From contig JAUXYA010000037.1 in assembly GCA_030684405.1 (NCBI GenBank), forward strand, positions 1 through 64,000: a stretch of 64,000 bases of DNA. Direction: 5' to 3'. Within the stretch, counting starts at the first letter, position 1; every line of letters begins with the position of its first letter. The notes below the pieces were generated by a model. That model did not search any database. It was not told the origin of the DNA and saw only the letters and a program-made list of their open reading frames with translations. Source of the stretch: Burkholderiales bacterium. Lineage in GTDB: Bacteria > Pseudomonadota > Gammaproteobacteria > Burkholderiales > SG8-41. Position numbers and translations under genes: made by a program. Positions 23,544 to 50,557 of the stretch are shown one piece after another.

Positions 23544-23627
23544 CGTCATTCCGGACGCGCATCGCGCGATCCGGAATCCAGTTATGCCGACGGTGTTTGC
23601 TGGATTCCGGCTTGCGCCGGAATGACG
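23544..23627. repeat. Palindromic attcc/ggaat repeat pair
   Basis: Left unit cgtcattccggacgcgcatc-gcgcgatccggaatcca (23544-23580) and right unit tggattccggcttgcgccggaatgac (23601-23626). The left stem is interrupted by a second short palindrome (gcgcatcgcgc). It lies between convergent genes. Confidence 0.85.
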
Positions 23628-23636
23628 GCAGGTCGT

Positions 23637-24362
23637 TTAGCTTTGTGCCCGCAGCAACGGCGCAGTCAGTGCCGAGAGGCTGGATTTCTGCCGGCCCAGC
23701 GCGTCGAAATTCTCCGGCGCCAGCCACTGCTCGTGCGCGGCGCGGATCGCCGGCCACTCGAGGTCGGTGATCGAGAACCACGCTGTGTCGCGATTGCGGT
23801 TCTTGTAGATCACAGCCTGCTGGAAACAACCCTCGTAGGAAAAGCCGAAGCGCTGCGCAGCTGCGCGCGAGGGCAGATTCAGCGCATCACATTTCCATTC
23901 ATAGCGGCGATAACCGAGATCAAAAGCGTTTTTCATCATCAGGTGCATCGCCTCGGTCATCGCGGGTTTGCGCGCCACCAGCGGTGTCAGCTTGATGCCG
24001 CCGACTTCGATGCAGCCGTTGGCGGGGTCGATGCGCATGTACGAAGCGACGCCGCCAGCGCGGCCGGAGGTGAGGTCAATGATCGCGTAGAAGCGCGGAT
24101 CGTCGCGCCCGGCCTGGGCTTCGACCCAGGCGCGGTAATCGGTCAGCGTCGCGAAGGGGCCGTAAGCCATGTAGGTCCAGCCGCGGCCGTCAGTTTCTAG
24201 CTTGTTGGCGTCGTGCAGCTGCACGGCATGGCGTTCGGGATGCAGCGGCTCTAGCCGGCAGTAACGGCCTTCGAGCACCGTGCGCGGTGGCAGCGGCGGG
24301 GGCGTCCAGCCCTCAACCGGAAATCCGACGGGCTGCCCGTATTCGTTGAGCTGGTCGCTCAT
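23637..24362 (-). CDS. GNAT-family N-acetyltransferase
   Basis: 241 residues from the ATG at 24362, which overlaps the stop of the aconitase-like small subunit gene by 4 bp (ATGA), so the two are translationally coupled. GNAT domain of the RimJ/RimL type: YCRLEPLHPERHAVQLHDAN, FYAIIDLTSGRAGGVASYMRIDPANGCIEVGGI, AMTEAMHLMMKNAFDLGYRRYEWKCDALNLPSRAAAQRFGF. The C-terminal part (QAVIYKNRNRDTAWFSITDLEW) is typical of this group. The acceptor is unknown; the coupling suggests a small molecule or protein related to the hydro-lyase. Confidence 0.88.
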   Translation of the reverse strand: MSDQLNEYGQPVGFPVEGWTPPPLPPRTVLEGRYCRLEPLHPERHAVQLHDANKLETDGRGWTYMAYGPFATLTDYRAWVEAQAGRDDPRFYAIIDLTSGRAGGVASYMRIDPANGCIEVGGIKLTPLVARKPAMTEAMHLMMKNAFDLGYRRYEWKCDALNLPSRAAAQRFGFSYEGCFQQAVIYKNRNRDTAWFSITDLEWPAIRAAHEQWLAPENFDALGRQKSSLSALTAPLLRAQS

Positions 24363-24898
24363 GCGGGTTGTCCGGCGCCGCGGGTTTCCTGCCAGCGCTT
24401 GAGCCAGCCGGCGTTGCCGCCGAGCTCGACGATTTCCATCAGTGCATCGGGAATCGGCGGGTACTCGCGGCGGATGTCCTTCGTGTGGTTGATGAAGTAG
24501 CCATCGCGGAAATTGACTTCCAGTTCGTCGCCGGTTTCGCACATTTCGAGCACGTTGACGCAGTCGGTCATCACCCGTAGCCCGCAGCCGATTGCCGCGC
24601 GGTAGGCGAGGAAGGGCATCGATTCGCAGACCAGCCCCAGCCCCAGCGCCTGCATCGCGATGTATCCATTCATTTTCGGACCCATGCCGAAGTTTTTGCC
24701 GGTGACGATGATGTCGTCCGGCTTGCAGCGGGTGTGGAAGCCCGGATCGGTTTCCTCGAACAGATGCGGGATGATGTCCTTGGGGTCGAAATGCCGCCCG
24801 ACGATGATGCGGTTCGGCACCACACCGCCCGCATGCCAGACATCATGGCCGAGCTTGTAGCAGCGGCCCTTGAGGACCCATTGGAAGTCAGATGACAT
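24359..24898 (-). CDS. Aconitase/LeuD-type hydro-lyase small subunit, strongly divergent
   Basis: 179 residues, the size of 3-isopropylmalate dehydratase small subunits. Recognisable by GRCYKLGHDV at the start, DIIVTGKNFGMGPKMNGYIAMQALG and LGLVCESM. In normal members the central motif reads NFGCGSSREHA; here GSSRE is GPKMN, and the N-terminal DNINTD-type motif reads GGVVPNR. The catalytic Ser/Arg loop is therefore missing. It pairs with the large subunit at 25478-26743, but the two genes are separated by a repeat-flanked GIY-YIG gene. The GNAT gene overlaps its stop codon. Substrate probably an unusual hydroxy-di or tricarboxylate (inference). Confidence 0.75.
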   Translation of the reverse strand: MSSDFQWVLKGRCYKLGHDVWHAGGVVPNRIIVGRHFDPKDIIPHLFEETDPGFHTRCKPDDIIVTGKNFGMGPKMNGYIAMQALGLGLVCESMPFLAYRAAIGCGLRVMTDCVNVLEMCETGDELEVNFRDGYFINHTKDIRREYPPIPDALMEIVELGGNAGWLKRWQETRGAGQPA

Positions 24899-24929
24899 TA
24901 TTGTTTCCCACAGACAGTAATAACCAGGT

Positions 24930-25014
24930 CGTCATTCCGGCCAAGCGCAGCGCGTGCCGGAATCCAGGAAGGCAGTAGCAAACCCAATGGATTCCGGCGT
25001 TTGCCGGAATGACG
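24930..25014. repeat. Palindromic attcc/ggaat repeat pair, downstream flank of the GIY-YIG gene
   Basis: Left unit cgtcattccggccaagcgcagcgcgtgccggaatccag (24930-24966) and right unit tggattccggcgtttgccggaatgac (24988-25013). It ends 20 bp from the GIY-YIG stop codon. Confidence 0.85.
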
Positions 25015-25033
25015 AAATGGGATGCATTGTTGT

Positions 25034-25321
25034 TCATATCAGGCTTTTGTAAAGGTCGGTCCACGCCGGATTTTCCTTCTCGATAAGTTCCAGTTTCCAT
25101 TGCCGTTTCCAGCCCTTGATCGTTTTCTCGCGCGATATCGCGGATTCCATGTTCTCGTGAATTTCGTACCAGACGAGCGTATGCACGCCGTACTTTTTGG
25201 TGAAACCTTCAACGACGTTGCTTTTGTGTTCCCAGATTCTCTTGATGATGTCCGATGTCACGCCGACATAGAGCGTGCCGTTCTTGCAGCTGGCCAGCAG
25301 GTATACGCATGGTTGCTTCAC
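25034..25321 (-). CDS. Small GIY-YIG nuclease-domain protein
   Basis: 95 residues; GTG start at 25321. GIY-YIG domain: PCVYLLASCKNGTLYVGVTSD (the VYL...LYVG motif replaces GIY-YIG), KRIWEHK (conserved Arg and His), FTKKYGVHTLVWYEIH, and the Glu of MESAISREKTIKGW. This matches the stand-alone UPF0213-like group, whose biology is unclear. It lies between the two subunit genes of an aconitase-like enzyme, on the same strand, and palindromic repeats begin 3 bp before its start codon and 20 bp after its stop. The repeat thus also occupies its ribosome binding region. Confidence 0.9.
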   Translation of the reverse strand: MKQPCVYLLASCKNGTLYVGVTSDIIKRIWEHKSNVVEGFTKKYGVHTLVWYEIHENMESAISREKTIKGWKRQWKLELIEKENPAWTDLYKSLI

Positions 25322-25324
25322 TGC

Positions 25325-25352
25325 CTGGATTCCGGCGTCCGCCGGAATGACG
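25325..25352. repeat. Single palindromic unit abutting the GIY-YIG start codon
   Basis: CTGGATTCCGGCGTCCGCCG-gaatgacg, one unit of the attcc/ggaat family. On the coding strand of the GIY-YIG gene it ends three bases before the GTG. Confidence 0.8.
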
Positions 25353-25385
25353 GGTTTAAATCGATCATGTTGCTTATTTCGTAGC

Positions 25386-25470
25386 CGTCATTCCGGACGC
25401 GCAAAGCGCGATCCGGAATCCACAAAAACATGGCGCATCTCGCGGATTCCGGCTTGCGCCGGAACGACGG
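25386..25470. repeat. Palindromic attcc/ggaat repeat pair, upstream flank of the GIY-YIG gene
   Basis: cgtcattccggacgcgcaaa-gcgcgatccggaatccac (25386-25423) faces ggattccggcttgcgccggaacgacgg (25443-25470). It lies just after the stop codon of the aconitase-like large subunit. The left arm matches that of the repeat at 23544. Confidence 0.85.
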
Positions 25471-25477
25471 ATGGTGA

Positions 25478-26743
25478 TCACAGTTTTCGCGCATCGGCAA
25501 TTTTTCCCGCCACTGCGGAAGCCGCTACCGTAGCGGGGCTGCCGAGATACAACCGGGCATCCTTCGCGCCGAAACGGCCGGCGTTGTTGTTGGTCGCGGT
25601 GGAGATCGACACTTCACCCGAATGCACCGGGCCGATCACCGCGTCGTTGCAAGGGCCGCAGCCCGGCGGCAGCATCACCGCGCCGGCCTCGATGAAAATG
25701 CCGAGCAGGCCTTCCGCCGCCAGTCGGCGGTTGGTCGCTTCGGAACCCGGTGCGATGAACAGCCGCACGTTGGGCGCGAGGCGGCGGCCCTTCAGGAGGT
25801 TCGCCGCGATGACCAGGTCCTCCCACATGCCGGAGCCACAGGAGCCAATGAAGGCATGGTCGATGGCTGTGCCCTCGACCCGGGAGACGTCCACTGCGTT
25901 CTCGACGCTGCCTGGCAGCGAAACCTGGGGCTCCAGCCGCGAGATGTCGAGCACGAGGTCGGCGTCGTACTGCGCGTCGGGGTCGGAGTACACCGGCGTG
26001 AAAGGCCGCTGCGCCTTCGAGCGCGCGTGTTCGAGGATCGCCGCCGACGGCGGCACGAACACGCCGTAGGCGCGGATCTCGGTCGGGGTCGAGCACAGTG
26101 CCGCGCGCGAGGCGAGGTCGAACTGTTCGAGGTCGCCAGCGTATTCAAGCACTCGGTAATCGAGGTCAGCGGTGAGTCCGCCCTGCTTCAGTTGCGCCGC
26201 GAAATGGAAGCCGACGTCGCGTGCGTGCACGCCAGGCGGCAGCCGGCCCTTCAGCGTCAGGCGTACGGACTTCGGCACCATCACCCAGTTGGTGCCGGTG
26301 GCGAGCACGCGGCTGATTTCGCTGCCGATGCGGAAGCCGAAGGCACCGATCGCGCCGGCATTGGTGGCATGGCGGTCGTTGTCGAAATAGAACATGCCCG
26401 GCAGCAGCAGGCCGGACTCCATCGGGAAAATGTGGCCATGGCCGCCGCGGCCGACGTCGTAGAAATTTTTCACGCCCCAGGCTTTCGCTGCCTGGCGGTT
26501 GAAGGCGCCGCGTTCGGCCGCGCGCGCACTGCCGTAGATCACGTCGTGATCAGTGACCATCAGCACCTTGTCCGGCGCCGCCAGCCGGGTGATTCCCAGG
26601 CCATCGAGCTCGCGCTTGGCGCCCATGACGACGCCGTCGTGGATCATGATGAAGTCGGGATCGGGGGAGACGACGTCTCCGGGTTTGATGCTGCTGCGGC
26701 CGCTTTTCAGCGCGAGCACTTTTTCGACTGCGGTCTGGGGCAT
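25478..26743 (-). CDS. Aconitase/LeuC-type hydro-lyase large subunit
   Basis: 421 residues from the ATG at 26743 (MPQTAVEKVLALKSG). It holds the three Cys that bind the [4Fe-4S] cluster in this superfamily: one in FIGSCGSGMWEDL and two in PPGCGPC, plus FDNDRHATNAGAIGAFGFRIGS (equivalent of GDSHTxTxGA) and the C-terminal NNNAGRFGAKDARLYLGSPATVAASAVAGKI. The central section (DLASRAALCSTPTEIRAYGVFVPP) differs from LeuC (normally MSIEAGAR), so the substrate is unlikely to be isopropylmalate or citrate. The small subunit lies 580 bp downstream after a repeat-GIY-YIG-repeat insertion. Confidence 0.85.
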   Translation of the reverse strand: MPQTAVEKVLALKSGRSSIKPGDVVSPDPDFIMIHDGVVMGAKRELDGLGITRLAAPDKVLMVTDHDVIYGSARAAERGAFNRQAAKAWGVKNFYDVGRGGHGHIFPMESGLLLPGMFYFDNDRHATNAGAIGAFGFRIGSEISRVLATGTNWVMVPKSVRLTLKGRLPPGVHARDVGFHFAAQLKQGGLTADLDYRVLEYAGDLEQFDLASRAALCSTPTEIRAYGVFVPPSAAILEHARSKAQRPFTPVYSDPDAQYDADLVLDISRLEPQVSLPGSVENAVDVSRVEGTAIDHAFIGSCGSGMWEDLVIAANLLKGRRLAPNVRLFIAPGSEATNRRLAAEGLLGIFIEAGAVMLPPGCGPCNDAVIGPVHSGEVSISTATNNNAGRFGAKDARLYLGSPATVAASAVAGKIADARKL

Positions 26744-36860: not shown

Positions 36861-36906
36861 GATTTGGCCGGTTTAGTCATTGAACGGATGAGATACGTTT
36901 TTCCGT

Positions 36907-37016
36907 CGTCATTCCGGCCGCCCCCCAAGGGAACTTCCTTCGGGGCGCGCTGAGCGCGAGCCGGAATCCAGAAGGCAATGTAAGAACCCTGGATTCCGGC
37001 GTACGCCGGAATGACG
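36907..37016. repeat. attcc/ggaat repeat pair with nested second palindrome
   Basis: The left unit cgtcattccggc-N-gagccggaatccag is enlarged by an insert (36919-36959, gccccccaagggaacttcct-tcggggcgcg). A right unit ctggattccggcgtacgccg-gaatgacgg ends it. The insert is found in reverse orientation in the neighbouring repeat. Confidence 0.8.
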
Positions 37017-37063
37017 GTTATTATTGAAAATTACATATGTGAGTGACACGAGGACTGTGCCCC

Positions 37064-37177
37064 CGTCATTCCTGCGCGCCCCGAAGGAAGTCCCCCTGGG
37101 GGGCAAGCAGGAATCCAGGTGTTTTGTATTGAAGCGGAACTGGATTCCGGCTCGCGCTACGCGCGTCCGGAATGACG
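37064..37177. repeat. attcc/ggaat repeat pair with the nested palindrome inverted
   Basis: Left unit cgtcattcctgc-N-gcaggaatccag carries gcgccccgaaggaagtcccc-ctggggggc, which is the reverse complement type of the insert at 36919-36959. The right unit is ctggattccggctcgcgcta-cgcgcgtccggaatgacg. Confidence 0.8.
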
Positions 37178-37219
37178 ATATCCTTGTCACTGAATTATGT
37201 AACTATCAATAAATTGCGG

Positions 37220-38599
37220 TTATTGTTTTCGCGCCGCCAGTGCCAGCAACTCTTGTACCGAATGGTTTTCGATGTCGAGCGCGATTTTGGCAATGGCATC
37301 GACCGGGGCGGCGGGCAGGATGCCGCGAATCTTTTCGGTGACGCCCGCAGCGTTGACCGGATTGTCGATGGAGCCGGTGGGGTTGAGGATGTCCTCGCGC
37401 ACCCACTGTCCGTCCTGTTCCGCGGCGACCCAGCCGGCAAAGTGCTTCGGATACAGCTTGTCGAGTTCGGGATCGTGCTCGCACTCGAGCTGCGCCGCCA
37501 GTTTGACCAGCTTCGGATCAGCCATGCGCTCGGCGGTGAATTGCGGCGGCAGCACCTGGCCGTCGACCAGCGCCGCGGCTATCACGTAGCGCAGGCTCAT
37601 CTGCGCGTTGAGCGCGCTGCCCGGCGCATAGGCGAATCCGCACTGCACGTCGACCACGTTGGACAGCCCGACCTTGACGCGACGCTTCGCGTCCCAAGGG
37701 GCGCCGATCTTTTTGCGCACCGCCAGCGCGGCGTCGATGTAGGCATGGGTGCTGCCGCAGCAGGAGTAGGGTTTGATCGAGTTGTTGTCGGTGTGCCAGA
37801 CGCGGCCGATGTCGCGGGTGAGCAGCGTCGCGTCACTGTCGTCGGAATGTGCCCTCAGCACGCCGCCGTCCTCGTATTCGTAGATCTGCGTCGGCCCGGT
37901 GTAGCCCATTGCCGCGAGTTCGGCGGCGAGAACGCCGGAATGCACCGCCTTGCCGGCGTGGAAACGTTTGCTCATCGTGCCATCGGCGTTGAAGGCCCAG
38001 GTGCCGGCGCCCTGGGTGCCGGCGAGGCCCAGTGCCCACGCTGTCCGCTCGGCGTCGAGTTTCAGCAGCGAGGCGCAGGTCGCCGCCGCCGCGAATGGAC
38101 CGTAGATGCCGGTGATGTGCCAGCCGCGCAGGCGCGTTGCCGAAGGGTTCGAGGCGAGGCTGGATCGGATCATGGTTTCGTAACCGGCCGCAATTGCGGT
38201 GACCACGGCCTTGCCGTCAGAGCCCAGTTTTTCCGCCATCGCCAGCGCCGTCGGCACCGTGATCGCGCCGGCGTGCAGCTTGGCGTTGTGGTAATCGTCG
38301 AGTTCGAAGGCGTGCGCCGCCGAGCCGTTGACCATCGCCGCATCGGCGACGCGCAGCGACGGACCCTTGTCGCCCCAGACCGTGGCCTCGCCCTTGCCGG
38401 AACTGCCGGCACGCGCCCAGGCGAGCAGCATCTGTGCCCACGGCGTGCCGTAGCCGTAAATGCCGCAGCCCAGCGTATCGAGGATGGCGATGCGTACCAC
38501 CTCACGGGTGCGCGCGGGGATGTCTTCGTATTTCAGGCCGCTGATCCAGGTGGCGAGTTCGCGGGTTGGTGCGCCGATGGCGCGGCGGTCATCATTCAT
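37220..38599 (-). CDS. MmgE/PrpD family protein
   Basis: 459 residues. The family covers 2-methylcitrate dehydratase, cis-aconitate decarboxylase and similar enzymes. Visible: ILDTLGCGIYGYGTPWAQM, AMVNGSAAHAFELDDYHNAKLHAGAITVPTALA (the HxxxxDD-like active-site loop: Asp-Asp and Lys/His), FNADGTMSKRFHAGKAVHSGVLAAELA and KPYSCCGSTHAYIDAAL. It is divergent (217 bp) from a TcuA-like dehydrogenase and next to Bug and PanE-like genes. Probably dehydrates, decarboxylates or isomerises a tricarboxylic acid (inference). Confidence 0.88.
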   Translation of the reverse strand: MNDDRRAIGAPTRELATWISGLKYEDIPARTREVVRIAILDTLGCGIYGYGTPWAQMLLAWARAGSSGKGEATVWGDKGPSLRVADAAMVNGSAAHAFELDDYHNAKLHAGAITVPTALAMAEKLGSDGKAVVTAIAAGYETMIRSSLASNPSATRLRGWHITGIYGPFAAAATCASLLKLDAERTAWALGLAGTQGAGTWAFNADGTMSKRFHAGKAVHSGVLAAELAAMGYTGPTQIYEYEDGGVLRAHSDDSDATLLTRDIGRVWHTDNNSIKPYSCCGSTHAYIDAALAVRKKIGAPWDAKRRVKVGLSNVVDVQCGFAYAPGSALNAQMSLRYVIAAALVDGQVLPPQFTAERMADPKLVKLAAQLECEHDPELDKLYPKHFAGWVAAEQDGQWVREDILNPTGSIDNPVNAAGVTEKIRGILPAAPVDAIAKIALDIENHSVQELLALAARKQ

Positions 38600-50473: not shown

Positions 50474-50557
50474 CGTCATTCCGGCCGGGCGCAGCGCGAG
50501 CCGGAATCCAGGACACATTTTCAGAACCCCTGGATTCCGGCTTCCGCCGGAATGACG
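50474..50557. repeat. Palindromic attcc/ggaat repeat pair
   Basis: cgtcattccggccgggcgca-gcgcgagccggaatccag (left) and ctggattccggcttccgccg-gaatgacg (right). It is inserted between the MoxR and VWA genes, which are normally adjacent. Confidence 0.85.

Follow-up and report, generated by a model that had tools for sequence, protein, structure and literature searches.

A GIY-YIG nuclease gene enclosed by CGTC-tagged palindromic repeats, a candidate mobile element at the leuC-leuD junction of a Burkholderiales bacterium

Introduction

Why should a gene for a small GIY-YIG protein lie between the genes for the large and the small subunit of an aconitase-like enzyme, and why is it edged with palindromic repeats? 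The question is raised by 64,000 nucleotides of a Burkholderiales bacterium (GTDB lineage SG8-41; assembly GCA_030684405.1, contig JAUXYA010000037.1, positions 1 to 64,000), a stretch that we call the window. A preliminary description of the window had seen a cassette here, consisting of a repeat, a nuclease gene and a repeat, and had likened it to the transposases that are associated with repetitive extragenic palindromes (REPs). Here we show that the gene and CGTC-tagged REPs form a unit that recurs across phylum-level groups with a biased orientation, that internally deleted and gene-less derivatives of this unit exist, and that it is present or absent at fixed sites in related genomes. The reading that we favor, which in our judgement stands evenly balanced between right and wrong, is that a REP, the gene and a second REP in inverted orientation make up a compact autonomous element, whose nuclease would target its own bordering CGTC REPs and whose cutting would drive movement.

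CGTC-1 REPs were described by Di Nocera et al. (2013; PMC3733652), who give them a CGTC tag, an 8-bp stem starting with AT, a 4-base loop and a CCA tail, report that such REPs are not associated with transposase genes, and, for want of a linked transposase, leave the mechanism of their spread open.

A GIY-YIG gene and five REPs at the leuC-leuD junction

The leuC-like and leuD-like genes of the window are separated by 579 bp that contain one GIY-YIG gene and five REP units, and all three genes share the minus strand, as had been described. The features are:

25034..25321, minus strand: GIY-YIG nuclease gene of 95 codons with a GTG start, different from the UPF0213/YhbQ-type gene that this genome also carries
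25325..25352, minus strand: CGTC-1 REP immediately upstream of the GIY-YIG gene and parallel to it; its CCAG tail stops three bases short of the GTG
24987..25014, minus strand: CGTC-1 REP downstream of the gene, inner half of the downstream dimer
24930..24966, plus strand: CGTC REP with a longer loop, outer half of the downstream dimer and inverted partner of the upstream REP
25386..25424, plus strand: CGTC REP with a longer loop, inner half of a second dimer, on the upstream side
25442..25470, minus strand: CGTC REP, outer half of the second, upstream dimer
25478..26743, minus strand: leuC / homoaconitase-like large subunit gene (host context)
24359..24898, minus strand: leuD / homoaconitase-like small subunit gene (host context)

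A dimer is found on each side of the gene, with one extra single unit upstream, which agrees with the repeat pair reported earlier for either side, with the palindrome that had been seen to end three bases before the GTG, and with the cassette architecture as such. Three of the five units take the form CGTC-ATTCCGGC-NNNN-GCCGGAAT-CC (one of them with G as its first stem base), and two have longer loops. Throughout the 3.74-Mb genome that carries the window, a 26-base REP pattern with at most three mismatches gave 49 matches, a single palindromic place being scored on both strands, versus 0 for the reversed control, and the REPs at this locus are therefore not due to chance. Judged by their sequence, the repeats are the published CGTC-1 REP, a family that is thus already known: a CGTC tag, an 8-bp stem starting with AT, a 4-base loop, a CCA tail, dispersed copies and dimers were all found. 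Tag, stem, loop, tail and dimers are what the repeats of the window share with the CGTC-1 REPs of Di Nocera et al. (PMC3733652), whereas the recurrent enclosure of a GIY-YIG gene between them sets them apart.

The gene-repeat unit recurs across genomes

The locus was compared with a set of 74 genomes of the same family, 50 of which have a match to the protein at E<=1e-3. Among these are 35 strong orthologues (E<=4e-19, the window included); the refetched window locus L002 was excluded, three genes with stops or a frameshift (L019, L022, L042) were retained, and five partial genes were handled separately. A REP was called canonical when its tag points outward and its tail toward the gene. At 32 of the 35 loci a REP lies within 120 bp of the gene, and canonical REPs border it on both sides at 21. 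In contrast, none of the 33 scorable UPF0213-type GIY-YIG genes of the family (36 of the weaker matches were fetched) has a REP within 120 bp, and a looser hairpin scan over the 36 whole 3-kb loci gave a single positive, L034. An enrichment of repeats next to GIY-YIG genes of this particular type, which the preliminary description had proposed to look for, is therefore evident, and the idea that REPs border small GIY-YIG genes in general can be ruled out for this family.

Of 584 relatives confirmed in named records we took the best 80, and found a REP within 120 bp of the gene in 63, a canonical one in 57 and canonical REPs on both sides in 20. At more than 300 bp from the gene, REP density amounts to 0.16 per kb for the family orthologues, 0.10 per kb for the named relatives and 0 for the UPF0213-type loci. 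A generic hairpin scan (GTC, a stem of 8-9 bp, CC) was positive for 32 of the 35 family loci and for 67 of 81 others (the 80 named relatives and one Neisseria locus), that is 99/116, versus 1/348 flank pairs shuffled with base composition kept. Furthermore, the gene is carried at E<=1e-15 by 99 of 398 genomes sampled evenly over phyla, and 23 of 29 loci, the best places from these 99 positives, are flanked by REPs (0/145 for shuffled flanks). The 120-bp, generic-hairpin and phylum-sample comparisons together rule out a chance neighbourhood of gene and REP.

According to their record titles, mostly those of contigs of metagenome-assembled genomes, the named relatives belong to Pseudomonadota (including zeta), Deltaproteobacteria, Nitrospirae, Bipolaricaulota/Acetothermia, Anaerolineae, Planctomycetota, Omnitrophota, Zixibacteria, UBP14 and Kerfeldbacteria. 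Explicit REPs were found at loci of Pseudomonadota, Deltaproteobacteria, Nitrospirae, Bipolaricaulota, Planctomycetota, Omnitrophota and UBP14, and the pairing of gene and REP recurs in at least seven phylum-level groups. A terminal inverted repeat (TIR) score of at least 15 between upstream and downstream flanks was reached by 34 of 77 own pairs and 72 of 500 mismatched ones, a separation that is only partial, since REPs are alike everywhere. As a separate observation, one genome with 208 ATTCCCGC-type REPs (G034) has its only close GIY-YIG homologue, L031, without an adjacent REP.

Gene remnants and gene-less dimers

Three of the five partial genes in the family (L213, L214, L217) lie between two paired REPs; a fourth, L216, has one intact REP and, by eye, an interrupted one, and the fifth, L215, has none. 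Moreover, a gene-less dimer of 158 bp is found at full length in at least 13 copies in G006, five in G007 and two in G030, with four more copies cut by an interrupted end, all among the places listed. Over its first 61-62 bp, which comprise the REP, the spacer and about nine codons (...NEVYYVYI in L193), it shows 85-92% identity to the intact cassettes L024 and L026. At the other end, the last 24-38 bp correspond to the ends of L024, L026 and the frameshifted L042, and 56 bp to the partial gene L216. To judge from these matches, the 158-bp dimer is an internally deleted cassette. A shorter type occurs in G004, where all seven of the 81-bp dimers examined have CCATAACA in common with cassettes of a second protein clade (clade 2), and two of the seven carry the whole of CCATAACACAGTG, including the start codon of these cassettes.

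A transposon with its miniature inverted-repeat transposable elements (MITEs) has inverted repeats at its termini and derivatives that keep both ends but have lost internal parts, and both features are found here. Because remnants lie between paired REPs and the 158-bp dimer appears to be a deleted cassette, the unit is similar to an autonomous element accompanied by MITE-like derivatives. Three 81-bp dimers of G004 (L199, L202, L203) are centred in another inverted repeat, like GAACACAGATTA...TAATCTGTGTTC, and a preference for palindromic targets is possible for this type of dimer.

The protein, its relatives and a proposed mechanism

At E<=0.001, GIY-YIG (PF01541) is the sole Pfam match of the window protein, at 58 bits (cut-off 22.6). 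Across 38 sequences Y7, Y18, G20, R28, H32, E65 and N84 are invariant, residues to which a catalytic role is ascribed, and the active site therefore looks intact. The predicted fold is a confident model (pLDDT 95.6). With it, Foldseek gave a single match below E 1e-3, the UPF0213 protein 1zg2 (E 4e-4); next came 1ywl, Slx1 and the UvrC N-domain at E 0.006-0.4, and I-TevI at E 0.6. The domain, the conserved Y, Y, R, H, E and N, and the alpha/beta fold place the protein in the GIY-YIG superfamily. UPF0213 proteins (PDB 1zg2, 1ywl), a clade also called YhbQ-type or YhbQ-like, have this same fold and about 100 residues, but match the window protein weakly, mostly at 30-40% identity, and differ in the absence of nearby REPs in the comparison above. 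The genome of the window itself has a second small GIY-YIG gene, which codes for a UPF0213 protein (1zg2, E 1e-16) of 36-38% identity to the first; the window protein belongs to a putative Ssn-like clade.

The likeness to REP-associated transposases holds for the anatomy. As in the REPtron of REP-associated tyrosine transposases (RAYTs), with its GTAG REPs and REPINs, a nuclease gene lies between inverted REPs, and gene-less dimers, here derived from the cassette, are dispersed. Unlike a RAYT, however, the window protein is a GIY-YIG and not an HUH/Y1 enzyme, and the tag is CGTC instead of GTAG; membership of the RAYT family is ruled out by the Pfam result.

A relative in Neisseria gonorrhoeae, 57% identical over residues 3-95, is found among 16 CGTC-1 (dRS3-type) units in 4.3 kb, and we take it to be the published Ssn. 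(Its record, NZ_CP119140.1, locus L192, 2.17 Mb, is filed as a plasmid and is, by its size, evidently the chromosome.) Ssn of Neisseria meningitidis reportedly cleaves NTS repeats in single-stranded DNA (ssDNA) and modulates transformation, as reported by Chenal et al. (Nat Commun 2025), and Ssn nucleases are said to be under development as an ssDNA tool. The earlier statement that no function is known for small proteins of the GIY-YIG type is at odds with the Ssn family, and the nuclease family is probably already known. A literature search of limited reach listed no publication about Ssn or about GIY-YIG proteins together with REPs. Because of the reported cleavage by Ssn, and of the position of the 57%-identical gene among CGTC-1 units, recognition of REPs by the nuclease is likely. 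That the cassette moves itself is a bolder step, which the anatomy suggests.

In the mechanism that we propose, the 95-residue protein would be a GIY-YIG nuclease with sequence specificity for the CGTC-tagged REP palindrome next to its own gene. It would cut both ends of the element as well as REPs elsewhere, presumably in ssDNA at the REP hairpin, and through this cutting the cassette and the gene-less REP dimers would be lost, gained or copied. The RAYT proteins, thought to act on GTAG REPs, would be its parallel, with an unrelated nuclease fold.

The alternative that survives best, although we think it rather doubtful, is that of a resident Ssn-type nuclease for which REPs are cutting sites on incoming ssDNA, tuning transformation or recombination, in a cassette that is not self-mobile and spreads by homologous recombination and horizontal transfer. 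The reported cleavage of NTS with its effect on transformation suits this well, and so does the gonococcal gene in its dRS3-type array; the window system indeed has in common with Ssn and NTS a small stand-alone GIY-YIG protein, a relative in such an array, and dispersed palindromes. Taken alone, however, this explanation gives no account of the inverted ends, the internally deleted gene copies, or the dimers with cassette ends. This anatomy, to which gene-less derivatives and the fused palindromes described below belong as well, is that of a mobile element, with cleavage as a prediction.

Presence and absence at fixed sites

The leuC-leuD junction could be read in 18 of 21 genomes of the genus, five of which have the cassette and 13 of which do not, with gaps of -4 to 185 bp in the latter. 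Relatives lacking the segment, for which the preliminary description had suggested a search, thus exist, and neither of the outcomes it had named as contrary (a gene always without repeats, or no enrichment) occurred. The patchy presence of the cassette at this fixed site suits the recombination that an Ssn-type explanation invokes as well as it suits transposition.

In the nearest relative, G012, the gap is 80 bp and holds a lone fused palindrome, CGTCATTCCGG-(6)-CCGGAATGACG, which equals the outer halves of two REPs. Counting exact forms only, mismatched ones being left out, this palindrome occurs at 21 distinct places in 12 of the 74 genomes, and its single place in G012 is the leuC-leuD gap, for which the chance is about 2 in 100,000. 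Similarly, on Sphingobium plasmids the gene is found beside fnrL in seven records and is missing from four related ones (four of the former and all of the latter were fetched), and two of the four empty sites have a fused palindrome, perfect in TomTYG64 and with a changed stem in TomTYG74. The gene separates sufB from sufC in Azospirillum lipoferum and is missing from A. ramasamyi, A. oryzae and B510 (94-95% identity, with 82% of the query covered). Three origins are conceivable for a fused palindrome: it may be the scar of a deletion between direct repeats, the junction left by an excision, or a target into which insertion takes place. As to a target site, the outer flanks show little consensus except for pyrimidines before GTC.

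Fused half-palindromes exactly at the empty sites of G012 and two of the four Sphingobium plasmids would also be expected if the gene were a free-standing homing endonuclease gene, cutting the cassette-less fused palindrome and being copied in via repair. We consider this unlikely, as 12 of the 13 empty sites in the genus are by eye without such a palindrome, and the gene resides in several unrelated contexts (leuC-leuD, sufB-sufC, and fnrL with a response regulator).

Several further observations concern the junction and the REP dimers of the window. Next to leuC-leuD, G013 has an apparent second leuC-like stretch, 71% identical. In L078 (G010) and L080 (G015) the gap is occupied by a different long palindrome, CCACAGAG...CTCTGTGG, and the site therefore accepts other repeats too. 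At 36861-37231 of the window, two REP dimers lie within about 330 bp and have no counterpart where G012 and G013 align; a gain is likely, the other option being two losses. Dimers are also found at 23546-23627 and at about 50475-50557, where the orthologous places of G013 hold single fused half-palindromes with mismatches, which parallels the leuC-leuD gap of G012.

Co-variation and copy number

If the nuclease acts on the REPs that border its gene, it is of interest whether both change together. The stems ATTCCGGC, ATTCTGGC and ATTCCAGC go with one protein clade and ATTCCCGC and GTTCCCGC with another, a split that is also seen inside single genomes with both clades and readable REPs (G064, G072). 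On a protein tree of 95 of the 116 loci (17 without a stem and four with internal stops omitted), the seven commonest stems, in 74 rows, require 22 changes versus 39.1 after shuffling, with 0 of 200 shuffles as low, and four of the seven stem types cluster. The co-variation of stem and protein is real but loose. Furthermore, genomes with the gene have a median of 48 REPs (n=27) versus 3 in those without it (n=47; p=1e-9, four REP types counted), and within the genus of the window the numbers are 11-32 and 0-29, respectively (p=0.007).

This link between gene and repeat number bears on whether CGTC REPs are moved in trans by some other enzyme, IS200/RAYT-like or another transposase, with the GIY-YIG gene as a passenger or regulator. 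Y1 transposases are indeed found in 52 of the 74 family genomes, but none of 30 Y1-transposase loci (best places, same family) has a CGTC REP, which speaks against an association of CGTC REPs with RAYTs there; REP number follows the GIY-YIG gene instead, and Di Nocera et al. (PMC3733652) report no association of CGTC REPs with transposase genes. We regard such movement in trans as improbable. That the REPs are ordinary intergenic hairpins, serving as terminators or mRNA stabilisers and bordering a small gene by coincidence, would fit their intergenic place and the operon-like junction, but is already disfavoured and highly improbable in view of an enrichment limited to one clade and lacking at UPF0213-type and Y1 genes, the biased orientation, and the stems that loosely co-vary with the protein.

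Discussion

Having set these alternatives beside the self-mobile element that we favor, we must take into account a number of observations that weigh against the latter. To start with the site itself, the leuC+leuD DNA tree (used in place of a LeuD protein tree, that protein being too short) requires five changes of the cassette, three of them forced by well-supported branches, versus a shuffled mean of 4.6; the cassette is no more clustered than shuffled labels, and a scatter of this kind is expected from ordinary recombination as well. Slippage between direct repeats could produce a fused palindrome with no nuclease involved, and neither a target-site duplication nor a newborn insertion was seen, in junction alignments too diverged to tell. 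Many of the 158-bp copies (L193-L197 and L248-L260, in G006 and G007) are nested, in both orientations, within a longer shared repeat, so that either the dimers have a specific target or the inner part inverts. Because of this nesting, with outer flanks common to many copies, their number is weakened as an argument and is no proof of transposition by the nuclease.

The association, too, has its gaps. Three of the 35 family genes and 17 of the 80 named ones have no REP nearby in the 120-bp scan, several of the latter having, by eye, CGTC-tagged hairpins with the other stems ATACCGGC, ATCCCGCG and ACCCCCGC. In L124, L149, L158 and the gonococcal L192, the REPs adjacent to the gene are reversed, with the tag toward it. 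As regards co-variation, ATACCGGC, ATTCCAGC and ATTCCTGC show no clear clustering (40, 500 and 500 of 500 shuffles as low, respectively), the Mantel correlation of protein with stem is weak (r 0.14, p 0.01), and in just 37 of 95 cases do a protein and its nearest neighbour share a stem. Finally, REPs are also found in gene-less genomes: 42 in G068, 29 in G022 (74% complete), 25 in G063, 23 each in G021, G044 and G073, and 14 in G012.

So what would a self-mobile cassette mean for CGTC REPs at large? The enzyme that these repeats were said to lack has its best candidate in the stand-alone GIY-YIG nuclease. More tentatively, and with less confidence than we have in the compact element itself, the nuclease may be their dedicated mobility enzyme, with MITE-like dimers, across at least seven phylum-level groups, in convergence with RAYTs and REPINs, and with excision and integration by way of fused palindromes. 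CGTC REPs are widespread in bacteria, and the gene-repeat unit, its derivatives and the fused palindromes make a role of the nuclease specifically testable. If this role were confirmed, prokaryotes would have a mobile element with a GIY-YIG single-strand nuclease at its core, and a selfish origin would be suggested for the nuclease family, which reportedly shapes DNA uptake in Neisseria.
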